Shown here one piece after another: positions 41,794 to 53,535 of a DNA stretch of 64,000 nucleotides (positions are counted from its first letter, which is position 1; every line of letters starts with the position of its first letter). Both the position numbers and the translations under genes were made by a program. The DNA comes from a virus. The notes under the pieces were generated by a model. That model was not told the DNA's origin. It saw only the letters and a list, made by a program, of their open reading frames with translations, and did not search any database. The stretch spans positions 1 to 64,000 of the IMG/VR virus record IMGVR_UViG_3300042542_003555; one strand, given 5' to 3'.

Positions 41794-43014
41794 TTAGTAT
41801 TCTACGATGACTACACCTGATGCACCAGCGCCGCCACCAACAAGCGCAGCACCCGGAGGGTTTGCACCACCACCAGAACCACCACCACCATATTGTCTTC
41901 CGGCAAAACCGCCGGGACTATAACCCCCGGTCGATTTTGCTCCTGCCCCCAAATAGCTATCTCCTCCCGTAGGACCAGCCACACCTATTCCACCCGTGAA
42001 TGGAGCACCCCCACCCGCACCACCAGCGATGTTTAAATCACCACCAGATCCAATACCACCACAAGTGCCAGGGGCAGCAGATGGGCCGGAACTACCACCA
42101 GACCCTCCTGTTGCACTAACTGATGCTGGAGATCCGAATGATGATGTTCCACCTGCTCCGCCCGCACCTCCTGCTGGGCCCGCTGTTCCGGCAGCCCCAA
42201 CAGTTACTGGATATGGAGTTGCGGCAGAAACAGGAATTATCTTAATGGCAGCGCCGCCGGCACCTCCAGATGATCCGAAATAAGGATCACATCCAGGTTG
42301 ATGTCCGCCTGCTCCACCTCCCCCACCACCTACGACAGTTACTTTAATTTTTGTTGTAGAGGGTGGTGTAGTAAATGTTTGACCTGGTGTAGTTGAAGTA
42401 AAAGTTGTAATATTAGTAAACCCACCCGATGGAATTACACCTGGTGCAATCTGTGGTGCCGTAATTAATCCTGTAATCTGAGTGTTTGCAATACTCAATG
42501 CGGTCTGTGCAGTCCAATATGGTTTACCAGCACCCGCACTGGTCAATAAGTGACCTGTTGTTCCTACATCAGTATTGGATGTGGTGTTTGCTGCTGATTG
42601 ATAGATGACTGTACCTGCTGCACCTCCAGCAATATTTGCAATGGTGTTTACAGAATATGCGTAGACAGTAATAATATCATTTAATGCTGCTGCCGTAGAT
42701 AATGTAATACTTGTTCCGTTTGATGCTGTGAATTCTATCAGAGAATCAAGTAGAACACCATTGAGGAATACTTGTACATAACCAACAGTATAACTTACGC
42801 TAAACACGGTTTGTCCTGCTGTTGCAGTAAACTTTGTTTGTGTATAGGTTGTTGCTCCAACACCAGCACCAGCACCTGAAACTGTTGCAGCAGTCGCACT
42901 GGTAATTCTTCCTTGTGCGTCAATCGTAATAATAGGTACCAATGATGAAGAACCATAAGTATCAGCAACAACACCAGTGTTAGCTAGAACCGAACTTGTG
43001 ACTTTTGTTGTCAT
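41794..43014 (-). CDS. Glycine-rich tip adhesin, copy 1 (406 aa)
   Basis: N-terminal fibre module VTSSVLANTGVVADTYGSSS with IITIDAQGRITSATAATVSG, a beta domain VGYVQVFLNGVLLDSLIEFTA, then ANTQITGLITAPQIAPGVIPSGGF, shared with the 290-aa adhesin, and a glycine-rich C-terminal half (GGGGGGAGG, GGAGGAGGTSSFGSP, GGGSGGGA) ending GVVIVEY. Its start overlaps the stop of the 888-aa fibre (ATGA). It is likely mounted on that fibre and sets receptor range. Confidence 0.85.
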   Translation of the reverse strand: MTTKVTSSVLANTGVVADTYGSSSLVPIITIDAQGRITSATAATVSGAGAGVGATTYTQTKFTATAGQTVFSVSYTVGYVQVFLNGVLLDSLIEFTASNGTSITLSTAAALNDIITVYAYSVNTIANIAGGAAGTVIYQSAANTTSNTDVGTTGHLLTSAGAGKPYWTAQTALSIANTQITGLITAPQIAPGVIPSGGFTNITTFTSTTPGQTFTTPPSTTKIKVTVVGGGGGGAGGHQPGCDPYFGSSGGAGGAAIKIIPVSAATPYPVTVGAAGTAGPAGGAGGAGGTSSFGSPASVSATGGSGGSSGPSAAPGTCGGIGSGGDLNIAGGAGGGAPFTGGIGVAGPTGGDSYLGAGAKSTGGYSPGGFAGRQYGGGGSGGGANPPGAALVGGGAGASGVVIVEY

Positions 43015-45677
43015 TTGTTATCACCCTTTAAACTGTCTATTTCTCGTTTTAATTCTTTAATCGCTTCAATTAATAATCCTACCATGTTTTGATACATGAT
43101 AGATTTTCCGTTTTCGTTTTCTGATACTAGATATGGTATAATCTTTTCAACATCTTGTGCTATCAGACCCATACCTTTATCACCAGTGTCTTTCCAGTTG
43201 TATTCAACACCTTTCAACTGCATTACAGTATTTAACGCATCTGCTATTTCTACTATATTTATTTTCTGATTTATATCAGATGTTGAAGTCATCACAGTAG
43301 ATGACAGAGTTCCTGTAGATGGAACATAAGTCAGTTTACTACTTGACGTATTAGCGATAGTTAGTACACCAGAAGTTTGTGATGTAAATGTAATATATCT
43401 GGTATCAGAACTTGCAGTTTCATCACTTAATCTTGGACCTACTAGACCAACAATGCCTGTGTTTGCGACAGAACCCGCAGATCCAGTTACACTAGCAGTA
43501 AATGTTACTCCAGAGTTTGCTTTGTTGCTGACATATGCCGTGGTAGCAATCTGTGTATTACTTACAGCAATGTCAGCAGTTGGTGCTAAAGGATATCCAA
43601 TAAATGTTGGAGATGCTAGTGTTGCTTTTCTGCTCTCTAAGTCATTGATTGCCAACTGAATTGTGTTAGCACCAGCATCAATACCACCTTGTGGTGAAGT
43701 AAATGCAATATTATTTGCATAGTATGGATTGTTAATGAATCCATCTACTTCAAGAAGAATAGCATCGTTGAGTGAAGGTGCTACTGTAAACGAAATCGTT
43801 GAGTTAGAAATATTTGCAGTATACTCAGATTCAAACTGTCTGACACCATTGATGTATGCTCTCAGTTGTGTTGCAGCAGAGAACGTTGGTGTCGTATAGG
43901 TTACTTGAGTACCTGATGCAGTATAGGACAGTCTTGTTGAGTTGATGGTTGTTCCTGGTGTTGCACCTCCACCACCTCCACCTCCACCGGCTGCCCAATA
44001 GTAGTTTCCAACACCACCAGTTGTTAACACATATCCCGCAACAGCACCAGACGGTAACAAATTGGTCAATGCACCTGTAGCAGAAGTTCCTCCAGTACCA
44101 CCTTGTGCTAATGCAAGAGGTGATGAAAGAGTTAAACTTGCAAATGTTGGTGAAGCTGTACTTCTTAAATCTTGTGATGTATTAACGGTTAGTACATTTG
44201 CAGTACCAGATATAGTAAGACCATTCCCGCTATTGAAAGAAATTACTCCATTACTTGCAACTGCAACACCAGACGTACCAACAAATGTTCCCCCACCAAT
44301 ATTTGCTCTGTTAAATGCTGCCTGTGCAAACACATTAACACTAGTAATATTAGTGTTAGTAGTAGTCATCTGTGCTTGTAGTGCTACAGTGTTACCTGAT
44401 GCTCCGCCGCCAGTGTTTGCTGTACTAAATGCTGCCTGAGCAAAAGTGTTTAATGCTGATATATTTGTGTTTTGGGTATTGTCTACACCTTGTAGATAAC
44501 TTAAAATAGTATTGGCTGCTTTTGAACTTGCAAGTGTCGATGAACTTGTAGAATTTGTAGAATCGCTGATCAGATTAGCGATAAGAATTCTAGAATAACC
44601 AAGAGTTGTTACATCCTTTACTTCCCAATAATCTTGAATTTCATTCCATCTAATTTCAGCATTAGCATTTCCTGGTCCTCTATATGAACCAAAAGTTCCG
44701 TTTTGTGGAACTGACGCATCAGCATTAATAGTTAAAGTATCTGAATTGTATACTGTGTCACCATTAACTACAAAGTTACCTTGAACAGAAATTGTGTTTG
44801 CTACAAGGCTGTCTACGTATATGTCTGATCCATTAGCATCGAGTGTATTCGATACAATAACATATGGACTTGTTACACTAGTATTTGCTATTAAATTGTT
44901 TGATCGTACATTACTTGATGCAGTAATTACAGGTGCCCAGATATATTGTCCAGCAGAAACATAATTGCTTCCGTATGCTGTTGTCGTTGTAAATGTTGTT
45001 GTGTTTACTGTAGAGTTAGCCTGAACTGCATTGATGTGTGCAGTACCACTTACTACTAATGTTGGTGATGTTAGTTCGGTATTTGCTTGTACTTTATCAC
45101 CCAACACATTTGCAGATGCAGTAACATCTTTAGAAACAACATGATTGGTTGTTCGAACAATCTGTGATGTTACATTTAGTCCAACAGTTAGATTGTTTGC
45201 AAAATTAACATTACCATTTTGAACATTTAATTTTAATGGTCCTGCTGTTGCTGAACCTATATAAACATTACCATTGGCATCAATAACTGTTGAGTTTGCT
45301 GGTGCTTGTCCTGATCCACCAGGTTGACTATTAATGCGTATCGCTAATCCGCTACCTGATTGTGTGATATTGACTACATTGTTGCTGTCATTGGCAATAA
45401 AATAATTGTTTGACGAACCAATAATCTGACCATCAATCTGCATATTCTTTTGAACATACAGAGAAGAACCAATACCAGAAATTTGCAGTTGACCTTGAAT
45501 AGTAGCATTGTTTGCTACTTGCAAACCAAGACTAGGAGAATTTAGAAATAAAGTTCCTGTTGGCTTGATAAAATTATTAGCTGCAAAATCATTGTTTTCT
45601 TGGGCCAGTTTGTTTGTTGTAACTACCCAATCACCAAATGTGTTTGCATAACTTAGTAGAGTAACGGTATTAGCCAT
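43011..45677 (-). CDS. Long tail fibre with C-terminal S74 chaperone, 888 aa
   Basis: The longest fibre. N terminus LLSYANTFGDWVVTTNKLAQEN is an attachment domain, followed by LNSPSLGLQVANNATIQGQL-type strands, many AQAAFxxANxG linkers and a beta domain TQLRAYINGVRQFESEYTAN. The C terminus is a second S74 chaperone, with TSTSDINQK giving Ser800 and Lys805 as the dyad, then GVEYNWKDTGDKGMGLIAQDVE and a closing coiled coil. It overlaps the upstream small gene by 8 nt. Confidence 0.9.
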   Translation of the reverse strand: MANTVTLLSYANTFGDWVVTTNKLAQENNDFAANNFIKPTGTLFLNSPSLGLQVANNATIQGQLQISGIGSSLYVQKNMQIDGQIIGSSNNYFIANDSNNVVNITQSGSGLAIRINSQPGGSGQAPANSTVIDANGNVYIGSATAGPLKLNVQNGNVNFANNLTVGLNVTSQIVRTTNHVVSKDVTASANVLGDKVQANTELTSPTLVVSGTAHINAVQANSTVNTTTFTTTTAYGSNYVSAGQYIWAPVITASSNVRSNNLIANTSVTSPYVIVSNTLDANGSDIYVDSLVANTISVQGNFVVNGDTVYNSDTLTINADASVPQNGTFGSYRGPGNANAEIRWNEIQDYWEVKDVTTLGYSRILIANLISDSTNSTSSSTLASSKAANTILSYLQGVDNTQNTNISALNTFAQAAFSTANTGGGASGNTVALQAQMTTTNTNITSVNVFAQAAFNRANIGGGTFVGTSGVAVASNGVISFNSGNGLTISGTANVLTVNTSQDLRSTASPTFASLTLSSPLALAQGGTGGTSATGALTNLLPSGAVAGYVLTTGGVGNYYWAAGGGGGGGGATPGTTINSTRLSYTASGTQVTYTTPTFSAATQLRAYINGVRQFESEYTANISNSTISFTVAPSLNDAILLEVDGFINNPYYANNIAFTSPQGGIDAGANTIQLAINDLESRKATLASPTFIGYPLAPTADIAVSNTQIATTAYVSNKANSGVTFTASVTGSAGSVANTGIVGLVGPRLSDETASSDTRYITFTSQTSGVLTIANTSSSKLTYVPSTGTLSSTVMTSTSDINQKINIVEIADALNTVMQLKGVEYNWKDTGDKGMGLIAQDVEKIIPYLVSENENGKSIMYQNMVGLLIEAIKELKREIDSLKGDNK

Positions 45678-45901: not shown

Positions 45902-48094
45902 TTAGATTCCTGTTCCTGATGGTAATGCTAACGCACGTAGGTCTGACAGATATGGTACTTTTGGACTATCATCTGATGCAAACACTACCTTGATAGCAAA
46001 TTGACTGAATTGTGTATAAGTTTTACCGTTTGTACTTTCATATGAAATAAAGTTATCTGCTACATTGTTTGTTCCTGGAGCAAATTCATATTCAATTAGG
46101 TTGTCTTTGGCTAATGAGTACACATTAGGATTACCAACTTGCGTCATCAGTTGCCAATAACCATCTTCAAACGGTTGTGTATCATCTCGGTTCAGAATCT
46201 TATAGTATACATAAATTCCTGTACCTAATGGTTTGTATGCTGTACAGAATACTCTCAAGTCGCCCGAATCGTTTCCTTGTGTCAATACAACTTTCTTAGT
46301 GAAATATCTTGCGAATGAGTTTCCACCACTACTTGAAGTTTCACCGTATACAACAACATTTGCTGGACTTGTGTTAGCACCTGTAATTGTAATGGTTGGT
46401 GTAGTGATATATCCTGATCCTTCATTGATCACATATACTGAAGAAATAACATCTGATGTTCCATTATTTGCAACTGTAAATCCTAAAGTTGCAGGATCGG
46501 AACCAATGTCTGGAGCACTAATAACGATTGATGTGTTTGCTGGGTCTGTGTATCCTGAACCTGTATTTGCTACGGAGATCACATTGTTTGATATACCCAT
46601 ATTGTTAATGATATTCTGCACACTATACACAGTAACACCATCATCTGAGATGATTGGGCTAACATTTGGATCGGTAGATGATAATGTTGCATACATTGAG
46701 AATGTATCATTGATTGTTTTAATCAATGCTCTTTGTCCTCTACCATCATCAAATGTAATATCATCTTGTGTTGGTGATCCTAGTTTACCGGGAGTTGCAG
46801 AGAATGGACCAATAGGAACATTTCCTTCAGCAAGAACCGCAGTATATGAATAATTAATATTTGTGCTAGTTGGTACAAAGTCTGTCGTTGTTAAGTTGAC
46901 AGCATCAGACCAGGTAGTTGTTCCAAAACTACCAAATAAGTTTGTCATATTGTTGGCATCAAGCTTATATTGAATATCTTGACTGCCAAGTTTTCTATAA
47001 GGTAATCCTTTTGGAATAGAAAACTGAATTGCTGGTGTGACAGAAGTATTGAATATGCACCTATCGATAACAAACATTAATTGCTTAGACTGATCTACTT
47101 GCCATGTGATAGAGTTTTGCGATTCAAACAAACCACCAACATATGGTGTCTGACCAATTTTTGATGTTTCGGTTGGGTTAGGATCAGTAGGCAGTGCTTT
47201 TGCTGTAGAAGGAACTGCTGTAGAATTCTGTTGAGCATAATATATGGTATAGTCAGCACTACTTGTTTCTAACATAAATGCATACAGAACATCGCCTTGA
47301 ATATAAACAGGAGCTTTAAATACAAACTCTGTATATGTCGATGCATCCAAATAATGAGGATTTTGTGATGTTACAACTTGATTTGCATTTAGTGTCACTG
47401 ATGAATAGTCTAATCTTTGCCCGTTTGGATATCCATTTAGTGTGCCAACGATTGATAATGTAACTGGAACATTAGTCGTTGGCTTAGAACGGAAAAACAC
47501 CTTTACTGAACGAAGAAAAATTCCATTAGGAAAGTTGCTCTTATTAACAATAAACGTTTGAGCAATAGGATCACGATAAGTAACAGTTTGTACAACTCTT
47601 GTTCTTACTAGCTGATTTTCTCTTTGAGATACTTGTACAAATGCACTTGCGGCTGAGTCAACAGATGGCGCAAACTCAAGTTTCTGTGATGTTGTTGCAA
47701 GACCTGATGCAGTGAAAGTTGCTTCAGCAAATGTAGTTGCTGTAGTGGGATCAGAAGAAACTAATCTATTGTCAACTCTAAAAACTCTATTTCCTGTTTG
47801 AAATATGCCGCCAGGAAGATTGAATATACCAACAAAATTTCCAGCTTCATCAGTTGAAAATTTAGATAGTGTATTTCCTTTTTGTATAGCATCAGCAATG
47901 GTTGTAATTTGATTACCATTGAAGTTATATTGTGATGTCACATCTCCAACTTTTGTATTATATCCTAATGATACATTAATAGGAGTATCAAGAGTTACAA
48001 TTTTGTTGATATGATCATATGCTGTAACAGTTGCAACATCAGTTGACGTTGATCCTATATACTCTGTTGGTTCTACTTTATATACGTAAGGCAT
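45902..48094 (-). CDS. Baseplate/virion structural protein, 730 aa (looks like C-terminal part of the DUF4815-type protein)
   Basis: Large beta-rich structural protein. It contains RVVQTVTYRDPIAQTFIVNK, GIFLRSVKVFFRSKPTTNVPV and NGYPNGQRLD, segments that I associate with the C-terminal half of single long DUF4815-type proteins in cyanophages. Two GSGY beta-repeat units (ANTGSGYTDP, INEGSGYITTP) follow, and it ends with SPKVPYLSDLRALALPSG. It begins 23 nt after the 1805-aa gene. The split between the two genes is unusual and is noted separately. Confidence 0.85.
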   Translation of the reverse strand: MPYVYKVEPTEYIGSTSTDVATVTAYDHINKIVTLDTPINVSLGYNTKVGDVTSQYNFNGNQITTIADAIQKGNTLSKFSTDEAGNFVGIFNLPGGIFQTGNRVFRVDNRLVSSDPTTATTFAEATFTASGLATTSQKLEFAPSVDSAASAFVQVSQRENQLVRTRVVQTVTYRDPIAQTFIVNKSNFPNGIFLRSVKVFFRSKPTTNVPVTLSIVGTLNGYPNGQRLDYSSVTLNANQVVTSQNPHYLDASTYTEFVFKAPVYIQGDVLYAFMLETSSADYTIYYAQQNSTAVPSTAKALPTDPNPTETSKIGQTPYVGGLFESQNSITWQVDQSKQLMFVIDRCIFNTSVTPAIQFSIPKGLPYRKLGSQDIQYKLDANNMTNLFGSFGTTTWSDAVNLTTTDFVPTSTNINYSYTAVLAEGNVPIGPFSATPGKLGSPTQDDITFDDGRGQRALIKTINDTFSMYATLSSTDPNVSPIISDDGVTVYSVQNIINNMGISNNVISVANTGSGYTDPANTSIVISAPDIGSDPATLGFTVANNGTSDVISSVYVINEGSGYITTPTITITGANTSPANVVVYGETSSSGGNSFARYFTKKVVLTQGNDSGDLRVFCTAYKPLGTGIYVYYKILNRDDTQPFEDGYWQLMTQVGNPNVYSLAKDNLIEYEFAPGTNNVADNFISYESTNGKTYTQFSQFAIKVVFASDDSPKVPYLSDLRALALPSGTGI

Positions 48095-48117: not shown

Positions 48118-51100
48118 TTATTTATTGTTAACAATACAAGCTAACTTTCCAAAAATCTTAAATAGTAGCATTACAGATTTTTGAGTGAACTTGCTTTCAT
48201 CATCTTTGAATGCTTTGATTAGAATCAAATTAACTAGCTTATTATCTAACTTACCAAAATAGTTGTTTAGTAGATAAGCACCATACACAGTATTCTTTCC
48301 AGCTTCTGTGAATTTAATCAGCAAATCGGATGCTCTTTCAGACGTTATGTATTCTCTCTCGGCCACTTTACGAAGAACACCACCTTCTCCTATAATGGAT
48401 GTTGTACCATACCCATTAACTTGATATGTACCATCTCCATCTACCCATAGATTGTATACGGGTTTGCCTTCTGCTGGAACAACATTGAATGGTTTGATTT
48501 GTTTTGTTCTACCTAACCAAGGATACGCTTCATAAATTTCATCCGAAATAGGACTACACAATTCACCATCAATATATAATGGGTGATTGATTGTTGCAAA
48601 TGGTTTCTCATCTTCTTTTACTGAATATAGTTGTTCAAATTTCGTATCAAGTGTTTTTTCAACGAAAGTAACTGTATTAACTTCTCTTTTCTTCCAATTG
48701 TATACTTTATCACCAACTTGAACTTCACTAATTTTCTTAGTTGAACCATCTGCAAGAAGCACTAAACTATCCTCAGTAAAACATCTTCCTCGGCGGCGTG
48801 GTGGTGGAGGAGGAACATATGTTGCTGTTTGAACTGTGTATGCAAATATGTATGTCGATGTAACACTAAGTTTCGTTCCTACATAATAGTTTGCAACATT
48901 AGATGCATTACCATCTAGTTTAACTTTTGTTACTCCAGTGAACCATGCTCCACCTTCAGGCATAACAACAACCTGAGCAACACTATCATAGTTTGTGTTT
49001 GGTGGACTTGTTGATTCAAATACAATTTCATCTGCGGCATTCTTAATAACAACAGCAATACCAGAAGGACCAGGAGATCCAGTTACAGACCAAGCAAGTG
49101 TTTTTGTTCCTAATGATGCTACGTTAAGGCTTGCTTGATTAACTGTTGTTGGGTTTGCAGCACCAGAAATGATTGTACTTCCATTTGATGTTAAGGTGTA
49201 CGCTCCAGATGACGAAACTTGAACTGTATATGTACCAGTATCTTCTGGAGTGATAGCAAAGGTTGCTGAGTATGATGCTGATGCATTTAAATCACCCCAA
49301 ATACCATATTGATTCAAGAACGTTCCCCATGCATGAGAGTTTTGAACTTTATAGAGTTGTAATCCACCAGTTATGGAGTTATTATAACTTCCACCAACAC
49401 CACTGAGCGTTCCTGATGTGGATAGTTTAGCAGTTGCCGCAGCAGTATTTAATGTTCCGCTTGCTGTTGATGATGTATATGTTCCACCAGAATTAAATAA
49501 CGCATTCTGGAAAGTGTTTGTTGGAACATATGATGGAGCACCTTGCAGCGTTGAAAGATATAATCTTACATTACTTGTGTTTGGATATTTGTATATCGAA
49601 ACAACACGTCCTGTTGCATTAAATGCGTTATTGTAATAGAATCCAACAATATCATCTTCATTAAATGTACCAGTTACACCAGTTAGTTCTAGTGTGTTTG
49701 GTGAAGTGAGATAATTATCAACACTAACTCCATCAAACCATGCAGAAACTGGAGTGTTAACTAATAATCCTTCTGCTCTGAATATTAACTGTTGTGGTCT
49801 AATATATGGTAAAACAGAGATATTTGTAATATAACCATTACCTAATCCAACAGTAGATGATACTTGTTGATAGTTACCAGCAGTAGTTATGGTTTGTAGT
49901 TGATCTTGGTATGATCGAGTTGTCGTTGTTGTAGTAACTGCTCTACCAGATGAAGATGTTGATGTTGAAACTATATCATATGATGTTCCAGGAATAGTTG
50001 TCCAATCACCAGCGTTTACAACATTGACTCCGTTTGTTTGTTGATATACTTCAGTACCTGGATTTACAATCAGCAACGAAGGTGCTTGACTATTGTCTAC
50101 CCAGTTATCCATAGGTGGAGTAATTCTCGCAACGCCTTGATATACAGCAACATTAAATGGATTCAGACTGATAGTTGAACTAGCAAGCGACTGAATAACC
50201 ACATTTGATGATGTATATGGTAGAGTAAAAATATTAGTTGATGTACCACCAATACTTGAAACCGCAATGTTGTTGAATGTTCGAAGTGTTCCCAGTGAAT
50301 TTAGAACAATTGGGTTTTGCAGTTGATAGTTATCAACAGTATTGATAGGACTTAATCTTCTTTTAGTCGTATTAATCTTTGCTGCGTAGTCAGGATTTGC
50401 TGTATCAGCAGCAGAGAAAGAAGAAAAATCATCTACCAAAATACCATTTTTAAATCTATTCAGTCCATTTACATCTGGCACTTGTAATGATTGTGCATTT
50501 GTTTCCAGTAAACTTAGAGAGGCATAGTATTCTAGATCGTTAACTCTTGTTTGCAGATCAGTGATATCTTTTTTGATCCAGTTCTTATTTAATACCTTTT
50601 CGATGGATAGGTTTGCTTGACCACCACCTGGTACCTCACCTGGAATATATGCTGTATATGGATCATAAGATAGATTTGCTAATACTAATGACCCATCTGG
50701 TTCTTTTGGTAACGTTGGGAATATAGATGGAGTTCCTTGTACCATCAAGAATGCTCTATCTTTTGTTAGAACAAGTTTATCTTTTCTTCCCAGATAATAA
50801 TCATAATCACTGACATATTCGCTTAGGTTTTCTGGAATTAAAATACCTGTATCATCTGCTGCTGGGTTACCGGTATAGTTGAATTCAAATGCTGCTTGTG
50901 CATTTTTTCTCACAGGTCTGAAATCAAGTGCATCGGCAAGACGATATACTGTTCCGTTTGTGCTGATATATGTAGAAATTTCTTGATATACTTCAGGTGA
51001 AGATGAGTTTGGTGCAAGGTATGAATTTACATCAAAGTATCCATCACCACCAGTATGTGAATAGTAATCAAATACAACTAGAATATTGCCTTTTGGTTTA

Positions 51101-53535
51101 TTTGCACCAGCAACAAGAACTAAAGATGCATGATCATAATAGTTATCTCTTTGCCCATTATCTAATCTAAACAGACTAGTAACATCATAAGCAGCATTAG
51201 ATAGCATTGCACTTGTTGCTGCTGTGCCTGGAGATTTTGTATCAATGATCTTTCTAATTTTCTTCACATCAGAAACATATAGTGAAGTGATTGATCCAAT
51301 ATCAGCATTTTGAATGTAGGCTTGACCTTTATTTAAATCAAGATATGTGTTATTGATTACGCCACTAGGACCAGCAATACTTGCAGATGTTGTGTTTCCT
51401 GTTACAAGATTTTTTGTTTTTAATATATTGGTTACATTGTCCGCATTTGAAACATTAACTGCTGCTATTACATCAACAACAATACCACCATAAGTGTCTG
51501 TTGTGAAGGTTACTGTCTTTTTGTCGCCAGAAAGAACTACAGTCTCACCAGATGATGTGAAGTCTAATATCTTTCCAGTCGCTCTATTAATGATTGTAAA
51601 GTTTTGTTTAACGGCATCTGAAGATAATGTTCCAGTACCCAAGAATGTCAGAGGAGTGCCAGCACCAATAGTGATGGTCAAAACGTAATTTGGTCCAGAA
51701 GAAGTAAATGTTTTTGCACGGAATACTTTAGTTGAAACATAATCACTGTTGCTGATATTTGCAACAAATGGATATCCAACTAAGAATAACATTTCTGGTG
51801 CATTTGGATTTTCAAGAATAGTGTCACCAGAAGCTACACCATTGAGTTTTCCTGCATTAGCAATATCTGCTGTAGCAATGATTACATTACTACTGTTTCT
51901 TGCAACAATAGAGTCAACAATTGTAGTCGAGAATTTCAAACTGAATTGTGTTGTGCTATCTGGTGTAACTGTAAATGGTGCATCAACTGTTGCTGTTCTG
52001 GTTGCTCCATTATATGAAACAATTCTTCTAATATCACCCACACTTGTTCCACCCGTGATAACAATAGTTGTAGAATAGTATGCATTTGCGGCAGTTGAGA
52101 ATTTACCACCAGCACCAGTGCCTGAGAAAGTAATTGTCGTTGGTGTTCCTGATGATGCTATTCCATTTAATGCATTTGTATTGATATCAGAAACATATGC
52201 CTTGTAGACATATGATGGAGTATTAGCATTTGATGTTGAACTTGAATACTTTAAGTTTCTTATACGTGCTGAACCAACTAATGTTGAGGCATATGTGGCT
52301 GTATTAGTCGTTAAAACATCAACGTTAGGAGTACAATGCAGATCAATGACTGGCATTGTAGTAACATCAAATGTTCCGTTTGCTGATGTTACTGTGAAAT
52401 AGCTGCCATAGTCAACAAATACAGCATTATTATTGATTGCATCTGTTGTTCTTGCTCTATTGATGCCACCCAATACTTCATCGGATTGATTTTCGATTCT
52501 ATAACCACGAACGTAAGCAAGTCCTTTACCAATCTTCAAATCATATTGTGCTGAATTCACTGTGTTTGCAGATGGTGTTAGCTTAAATTCATCAACAATA
52601 TAGTCACCATTGCTTTCGAAATCTCTCTTTGCAAAGTAATCATCGATAACAGAATAAACACTGTTATCTACTTGTTTGATAATAGTTCCATTACTTACTC
52701 TTACAAGTTCAATAAACTGATCATCATTTCCTGGTGTTAGTGGTAATGAAATAAGATCAAGACCAATCTTGAATCTATCAGCACCAGGTGCTTGATAGTT
52801 AGATGCACCAACAGCAGGATCTAATAATGAAGGATCGTTAACATAGTCAACAATTGTTTCCGTGATAGAAAGACCAACACGATATGATGGTGTATTGCTA
52901 TACTTGTCCAGAACAATAGTTTGTGGTGAAACTTGTACAAAATGTCCAATTGAATACTTGCTAAATGTTCCATCAGGATTCGGTGTTGATGAAATATTAT
53001 ATCCATTTACAATATAAAAAATACCTTGAGAAATGGATGCAGTAGATGTTTTTCCGGTGCAAGTGCTGAAGCCAGTAGAACCAATTGTTGTTGCTGTAAA
53101 GTTTGATCCATCAGTACAGAAGATTTGCATATTGTCTGTGAACTGAACACCAGAGTAATATGAAACATATAACGTAGGTGGATCTGCTTGTGAAGCTTCT
53201 GTCGTTGCAATTACTTTTGCTCTTACGATTCCTTCAGCATCTTGAATATCTTTGTTTAGAAAATTTTCAGCTATAACTTCTGTGCCAATTAGTGTTGTAA
53301 GATTTAACTTTACGTAATAGTTATTAAGGTTAGTTGTTACTTTACCACCAGAAACTGGAGAGTTCTGTGTGAAAATATGATCAGCAAAATTACTGATCTG
53401 ATTTTGTAGAATCGTTTGAGCCTGTGTTAATTCTCTCGCCTGAACCGCAAATCCTGGCTTAAATAGTATTCTATGAAAATTCTTTGTTGGGTCAAAATCA
53501 TCAAAATACGGATCAACGTTAAAATTTAGAGCCAT
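48118..53535 (-). CDS. DUF4815-type baseplate protein with C-terminal Hint (intein-like) domain, 1805 aa
   Basis: The N-terminal ~800 residues match the DUF4815 structural type (DPYFDDFDPTKNFHRILFKPG, VQARELTQAQTILQNQI). A long beta-rich middle and an inserted domain (about 1400-1510, SHAWGTFLNQYGIW) follow. After a P5/RRRGR linker (1575-1584) there is an intein-like Hint domain, 1585-1715: CFTEDSLVLLADGSTKKI (Cys1585, block A), VGDKVYNW, TINH (1648-1651, block B) and KPVYNLWVDGDGTYQVNG (block F-like). No C-terminal His-Asn. A 90-aa helical tail follows. Likely self-cleaves at Cys1585 or links to another nucleophile; not a splicing intein. Confidence 0.85.
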   Translation of the reverse strand: MALNFNVDPYFDDFDPTKNFHRILFKPGFAVQARELTQAQTILQNQISNFADHIFTQNSPVSGGKVTTNLNNYYVKLNLTTLIGTEVIAENFLNKDIQDAEGIVRAKVIATTEASQADPPTLYVSYYSGVQFTDNMQIFCTDGSNFTATTIGSTGFSTCTGKTSTASISQGIFYIVNGYNISSTPNPDGTFSKYSIGHFVQVSPQTIVLDKYSNTPSYRVGLSITETIVDYVNDPSLLDPAVGASNYQAPGADRFKIGLDLISLPLTPGNDDQFIELVRVSNGTIIKQVDNSVYSVIDDYFAKRDFESNGDYIVDEFKLTPSANTVNSAQYDLKIGKGLAYVRGYRIENQSDEVLGGINRARTTDAINNNAVFVDYGSYFTVTSANGTFDVTTMPVIDLHCTPNVDVLTTNTATYASTLVGSARIRNLKYSSSTSNANTPSYVYKAYVSDINTNALNGIASSGTPTTITFSGTGAGGKFSTAANAYYSTTIVITGGTSVGDIRRIVSYNGATRTATVDAPFTVTPDSTTQFSLKFSTTIVDSIVARNSSNVIIATADIANAGKLNGVASGDTILENPNAPEMLFLVGYPFVANISNSDYVSTKVFRAKTFTSSGPNYVLTITIGAGTPLTFLGTGTLSSDAVKQNFTIINRATGKILDFTSSGETVVLSGDKKTVTFTTDTYGGIVVDVIAAVNVSNADNVTNILKTKNLVTGNTTSASIAGPSGVINNTYLDLNKGQAYIQNADIGSITSLYVSDVKKIRKIIDTKSPGTAATSAMLSNAAYDVTSLFRLDNGQRDNYYDHASLVLVAGANKPKGNILVVFDYYSHTGGDGYFDVNSYLAPNSSSPEVYQEISTYISTNGTVYRLADALDFRPVRKNAQAAFEFNYTGNPAADDTGILIPENLSEYVSDYDYYLGRKDKLVLTKDRAFLMVQGTPSIFPTLPKEPDGSLVLANLSYDPYTAYIPGEVPGGGQANLSIEKVLNKNWIKKDITDLQTRVNDLEYYASLSLLETNAQSLQVPDVNGLNRFKNGILVDDFSSFSAADTANPDYAAKINTTKRRLSPINTVDNYQLQNPIVLNSLGTLRTFNNIAVSSIGGTSTNIFTLPYTSSNVVIQSLASSTISLNPFNVAVYQGVARITPPMDNWVDNSQAPSLLIVNPGTEVYQQTNGVNVVNAGDWTTIPGTSYDIVSTSTSSSGRAVTTTTTTRSYQDQLQTITTAGNYQQVSSTVGLGNGYITNISVLPYIRPQQLIFRAEGLLVNTPVSAWFDGVSVDNYLTSPNTLELTGVTGTFNEDDIVGFYYNNAFNATGRVVSIYKYPNTSNVRLYLSTLQGAPSYVPTNTFQNALFNSGGTYTSSTASGTLNTAAATAKLSTSGTLSGVGGSYNNSITGGLQLYKVQNSHAWGTFLNQYGIWGDLNASASYSATFAITPEDTGTYTVQVSSSGAYTLTSNGSTIISGAANPTTVNQASLNVASLGTKTLAWSVTGSPGPSGIAVVIKNAADEIVFESTSPPNTNYDSVAQVVVMPEGGAWFTGVTKVKLDGNASNVANYYVGTKLSVTSTYIFAYTVQTATYVPPPPPRRRGRCFTEDSLVLLADGSTKKISEVQVGDKVYNWKKREVNTVTFVEKTLDTKFEQLYSVKEDEKPFATINHPLYIDGELCSPISDEIYEAYPWLGRTKQIKPFNVVPAEGKPVYNLWVDGDGTYQVNGYGTTSIIGEGGVLRKVAEREYITSERASDLLIKFTEAGKNTVYGAYLLNNYFGKLDNKLVNLILIKAFKDDESKFTQKSVMLLFKIFGKLACIVNNK
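48119..48126 (-). promoter_or_regulatory. Late promoter candidate (AATAAATA) for the 730-aa gene
   Basis: AATAAATA on the minus strand, overlapping the stop codon of the 1805-aa gene and 24 nt before the 730-aa gene's ATG. One base off TATAAATA. If active, the two genes need not be co-expressed. Confidence 0.45.

Follow-up and report, generated by a model that had tools for sequence, protein, structure and literature searches.

What does an intein-like domain do at the C-terminus of a phage baseplate protein? This question is raised by an open reading frame on the minus strand, at positions 48118-53535 of the window, i.e. the whole stretch of 64,000 nucleotides that was analysed, taken from a virus record with a length of 160,983 bases (IMG/VR IMGVR_UViG_3300042542_003555). 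The encoded protein of 1805 aa shows profile matches to DUF4815 (PF16075, 1.3e-57) and phrog_358 (2e-234), and represents the first part of VrlC, which is regarded as a component of the two-layered baseplate (PMC7029224). An earlier note had read an intein-like Hint domain into its C-terminal part. The relevant features, all on the minus strand, are as follows.

48784-53535, minus strand: N-terminal 1584 aa, first part of VrlC/DUF4815 (PF16075, phrog_358; alignment to the contiguous HTVC008M and Mosig VrlC)
48784-48819, minus strand: linker YVPPPPPRRRGR, residues 1573-1584 (sequence)
48391-48783, minus strand: Hint domain, residues 1585-1715, ~131 aa (Pfam Hint families, AlphaFold2, Foldseek, 59-sequence alignment)
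48781-48783, minus strand: Cys1585, Cys1 of the module and predicted to be the nucleophile in the N-S acyl shift (invariant, 59/59)
48658-48660, minus strand: Glu1626 (module Glu42), aligned with Hedgehog Asp46 (invariant, 59/59)
48583-48594, minus strand: TINH, the TxxH motif, residues 1648-1651 (module Thr64 and His67 invariant, 59/59)
48397-48417, minus strand: NGYGTTS, degenerate last splicing motif with T-S replacing His-Asn (alignment)
48121-48390, minus strand: five-helix domain, residues 1716-1805, 90 aa (AlphaFold2 helices, conserved Gly168)
45902-48094, minus strand: separate gene for the second half of VrlC (phrog_358 positions 1313-1621; aligned to the C-terminal parts of HTVC008M and Mosig VrlC)

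The 1584-aa N-terminal part, a predicted baseplate component, is presumably the cargo of the Hint module. At its end lies a beta domain that weakly resembles PA14 at residues ~1427-1463 (0.045) and for which the AlphaFold2 model was poor (pLDDT 51). The linker of most relatives contains runs of Pro and Gly (alignment of 14 relatives), and the residue directly before Cys1 is Gly in 32 of 57 relatives; the VrlC of this virus carries Arg1584 at this position instead. The gene for the second half of VrlC begins 23 nt after the Hint-bearing reading frame, and the whole record contains a single copy of the module. Of note, the neighbouring tail-fibre-like gene (43011-45677) encodes a C-terminal Peptidase_S74 domain (2.7e-13), and the next one (41794-43014) a C-terminal Gly_rich_2 domain (6.8e-12).

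The C-terminus of this VrlC is a Hint domain, in which the fold, the profile, the Block A cysteine and the Block B TxxH motif of the Hint superfamily were all found. In a profile search, the end of the protein matched three Hint families, PF01079 (2.9e-6), PF05203 (1.1e-5) and PF14623 (Vint, 3.2e-5), each match of this sequence lying slightly below its curated cut-off, and these families matched 41, 39 and 34 of the 59 family members, respectively. An AlphaFold2 model of the module, built with 59 relatives, was confident (pLDDT 95.2, pTM 0.89) and showed a Hint fold at module residues 1-131 and five helices within residues 135-218. When compared with the PDB using Foldseek, it matched the Tetrahymena BIL2 domain (1e-7), Vint (2.5e-7) and Hedgehog (7e-5), and also gp41-1 and other inteins, all over the Hint part alone. 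The Hint similarity is beyond chance, and Pfam, the predicted fold and Foldseek agree on the domain that the earlier note had proposed for this DUF4815-type protein. Cys1585, CFTEDSLVLLADGS, TINH (1648-1651), YNLWVDGDGTYQVNG (1694-1708) and the linker were likewise found where they had been placed. The extent of 48391-48783 given at that time holds for the Hint domain and stops short of the end of the module, since the 90-aa helical domain belongs to it; the whole module, Hint plus helical domain, thus spans residues 1585-1805 (221 aa, 48121-48783, minus strand). Several proteins from uncultured phages named "Hint domain containing protein" were among the matches in a viral structure library, so that the Hint fold in phages is already annotated, and a search of open-access full text yielded papers on phage inteins but none about Hint modules at the C-terminus of virion proteins.

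In the alignment of 59 sequences, Cys1, Phe2, Glu42, Thr64, His67, Trp89, Trp113, Asp117, Asn123 and Thr127 are invariant, and the catalytic residues remain so down to a family identity of ~33%; the conservation of TxxH and YNLWVDG is partly inflated in this count, because the scans of viral contigs used such motifs as patterns, one of them FxTxNHP and YNLWVDG. Cys1 and Glu42 are outside these patterns, and Cys1 is also kept in loci that were recovered later by way of VrlC second halves. The Block A cysteine and the TxNH histidine required for an acyl shift, which had been noticed in this one protein, are present throughout the family (Cys1, Thr64 and His67, all 59/59). The C-terminal His-Asn, which had been noticed as missing, is found in none of the 59, and the family ends in T-T/H-S in its place (Thr127 in 59/59, Ser129 in 55/59). 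Most of the pairs tested gave a dN/dS ratio of ~0.1 or below, for the Hint and the helical domain alike (for the latter, dN 0.115 and dS 2.19 against L039), and by this measure the module is under purifying selection. The helices of the C-terminal domain were predicted at module residues 135-142, 148-160, 163-179, 182-192 and 198-218, and a Foldseek search of the PDB gave no structural match for this domain. Its position is that of the adduct-recognition region that follows the Hint domain in Hedgehog, with which no similarity was seen.

Scans of viral contigs yielded 37 and 68 loci. One more contig, which had been binned in a bacterial metagenome-assembled genome, was returned as well and also carries VrlC pieces. 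About 60 distinct relatives of the module were found in all, on uncultured phage contigs. Protein searches did not find the module in isolated phages, and the weak matches were partial and resembled other Hint/intein domains. The megaphage Prevotella phage Lak-B2 (L106) showed a weak Hint-like match of 69 residues that starts with CC. Every member whose end is complete carries the module at the C-terminus. Its partners include VrlC, the gp5 baseplate hub (N-terminal part), tail-fibre-like proteins rich in Gly, virion structural proteins and some short proteins of unknown kind. On the tree, 21 changes of partner label are required for 15 groups, clearly fewer than with shuffled labels, and strongly supported branches give at least two changes each for VrlC site A and gp5; therefore, the module was mostly inherited together with its partner, yet switched partners several times. 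Three relatives (L047, L048 and L052) have a hydrophobic, membrane-like stretch right before Cys1.

Some of these proteins carry more than one Hint domain. The most extreme case is L068 (1571-7084), a single phage protein with seven, six of them head-to-tail followed by the terminal module; four neighbouring units are 81-93% identical, and only one Lys separates each from the next (...LVHNK-CFIAGT). In VrlC or fibre-like proteins of L045, L021, L081, L084, L085 and L087, a terminal T-T-S module is preceded by one to four Hints of the His-Asn (HN) type, and the VrlC first halves of L198, L199, L224 and L234 end in three tandem Hints, at least two of the HN type, without a terminal module. The upstream HN-type Hints keep His-Asn and mostly have no acid at position 42. 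HN is lost throughout the terminal modules, even where an HN-type Hint lies in the same protein.

In HTVC008M and Mosig, VrlC is one chain of ~2000 aa. Wherever VrlC carries the module, it is broken right after it: at about 30 loci the module closes the first half, and a new gene, usually no more than 35 nt away, encodes the second. At least three break points were seen, at HTVC008M positions ~1322, 1370 and 1475. The dependence between split and module was tested starting from VrlC second halves, and the loci found in this way were 23 split with a Hint domain, 83 split without it and 44 contiguous, which rules out the Hint domain as the cause of the split. Where VrlC is split without a Hint domain, the first half terminates in S74 (PF13884, 2.8e-9 in L216; also L226), in a Gly/Asp-rich tail or in one of two further helical modules, which have a Cys following the linker; the same beta domain and YVPPPP linker stand before different modules. 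Therefore, the Hint module is interchangeable with other modules, and VrlC itself does not need it, since many VrlC first halves carry none. The helical module starting with IIC(T/N/Q)KL follows the linker in L113, L117, L127, L146, L187, L188, L191 and L223, and has a relative with 40% identity in the isolated Synechococcus phage SynMITS9220M01; the second one, starting with CVVAT, occupies the same place in L114, L124, L125, L141, L155 and L183. Neither type gave anything significant in Pfam or NCBIfam.

Taken together, we consider it probable that the module processes itself at the C-terminus of a phage virion protein and thereby releases the baseplate part. Release of the N-terminal part through an N-S acyl shift is a well-supported prediction. 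We infer the reaction, its timing and its role in assembly as follows. Cys1585 would attack the Arg1584-Cys1585 bond, and this N-S acyl shift, aided by Thr1648 and His1651, would produce a thioester. Since there is neither a His-Asn nor a C-extein, splicing cannot follow, and N-terminal activation without splicing is predicted from the missing C-terminal His-Asn; splicing is excluded by anatomy, as the module ends the protein. Water or a small nucleophile, probably activated by Glu1626, would then resolve the thioester, which would free the 1584-aa baseplate part, now with a new C-terminus, from the departing 221-aa Hint and helical domains. This departure would probably occur after the module has aided folding or assembly, like S74 at the same place in other phages. 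Points against this reading are the Arg in place of Gly before Cys1585, the lack of the module in the isolated phages searched, and the many VrlC first halves that do without it.

The nature of the nucleophile distinguishes a hydrolytic release from a Hedgehog-like transfer, in which a specific small molecule (a lipid, sugar or amine), bound by the helical domain, attacks the thioester and leaves a covalent adduct on the baseplate protein. The order cargo-linker-Hint-helical domain is also found in Hedgehog C-terminal parts, purifying selection acts on the conserved helical domain, and the invariant Glu42 stands at the Asp46 position and is mostly missing from the related HN-type phage Hints, which makes attack by an activated nucleophile plausible. 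However, an acid at this position is not exclusive, as it occurs in 3 of 20 HN-type Hints of related phage proteins, and Glu42 is not diagnostic because the Clostridium thermocellum BIL also has a Glu aligned there. Moreover, the helical domain found no structural counterpart in the PDB, and nothing points to a particular adduct. Hydrolysis is favoured as somewhat more likely than specific transfer, which we regard as unlikely. A broader version, in which such modules are phage Hedgehog-type transferases whose helical domain recruits the nucleophile and whose Hint domain attaches it covalently to the new C-termini of baseplate, hub and fibre proteins, for lipidation, crosslinking or surface attachment, is slightly more doubtful still.

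A domain that does not react at all, and is retained on the particle as a structural element, is improbable: Hint folds can persist as scaffolds, but Cys1, Thr64, His67 and Glu42 that stay invariant at such low identity are hard to explain without catalysis. The position of the break, right after the module in a protein that is one chain in HTVC008M and Mosig, could suggest that the N-terminus of the second half attacks the thioester of the first half and restores a single chain. Such a ligation is very unlikely, as the second halves start with unrelated residues (MKPI, MAYT, MPYN, MSYT, MATS and MGYN) and share no conserved Cys, Ser or Thr nucleophile, nor do they carry a C-intein part; most split loci are Hint-less, and the module also occurs on proteins without any second half. 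Finally, inteins are common in phage genes, and one locus of the same scan (L101) is an ordinary endonuclease intein, so that the module could be a decaying or selfish intein that was inserted in VrlC and broke the gene. This is the least probable reading, since the module contains no endonuclease, shows no decay at a dN/dS of ~0.1, is always C-terminal with its own helical domain on many different partners, and split VrlC exists without it. Self-processing with release of the baseplate part is thus the reading that we retain. The intein-like Hint domain of the earlier note stands and is conserved in 59 sequences, so that its interpretation is supported in part, with thioester formation and cleavage or transfer standing as predictions; what that note had omitted are the helical domain, Glu42, the split of VrlC and the interchangeability of the module.

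In virion proteins, self-cleaving modules at the C-terminus are mainly known from S74-type chaperones. The present Hint module, with the full N-terminal cleavage set and an unmatched helical domain, fills an S74-like niche in baseplate, hub and fibre proteins, and to judge from these sequences a known protein-cutting chemistry probably operates in the building of phage particles. What stands out is that the module sits on virion proteins, has a conserved helical domain, joins a broad set of partners and fills this niche. Whether phages use thioester chemistry to release or decorate virion proteins has become a testable question, the Hint arrays in related proteins represent a second unexplained use of the Hint fold, and such domains could become new cleavage or ligation tools.

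Compared with known systems, the nearest solved structures to the module are BILs (6tmm/6y75 and 2lwy). B-type BILs contain the splicing motifs except the C-terminal one, are predicted to undergo N-terminal cleavage and are found in variable proteins (PMC7765530). The module likewise has the Hint fold and these motifs minus the C-terminal one, as in the sequence definition of this type, and differs in that it ends the protein and has the five-helix domain, the invariant Glu42, the T-T/H-S ending and a location in phage virion proteins. In functional terms, B-type BILs are defined by demonstrated N-terminal and atypical C-terminal cleavage. A-type BILs differ by their conserved His-Asn end, which only the HN-type Hints upstream in some relatives possess. 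Inteins differ by a C-terminal Asn, a Cys, Ser or Thr at position +1 and a C-extein. Fractured genes with split inteins resemble the present case in that the VrlC gene is broken beside a Hint domain, but its second gene has no C-intein and Hint-less splits are commoner. Vint of Tetrahymena (8r2c) was the second best distinct solved structure (E 2.5e-7), and Pfam Vint matched more than half of the family (34/59). Eukaryotic Vint is linked to VWA proteins (PMC2362128), whereas no VWA is present here. Peptidase_S74, the endosialidase chaperone, is a self-removing C-terminal module that also terminates VrlC first halves (L216, L226), in the position of the Hint module, with a fold and chemistry unrelated to those of the latter. 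The Hog domain of Hedgehog is likewise a C-terminal Hint without His-Asn, with a CF start, an acid at Asp46 and a helical region that follows, and Foldseek matched the module to Hedgehog 1at0 and 6tyy, although hhalign was confident over the first 30 residues only. It differs in being an animal domain with a known adduct, and its Asp or His activates cholesterol (PMC7765530), whereas the module has Glu42 at the Asp46 position. By its sequence, the module fits the definition of a B-type BIL, and it resembles Hog in its layout.
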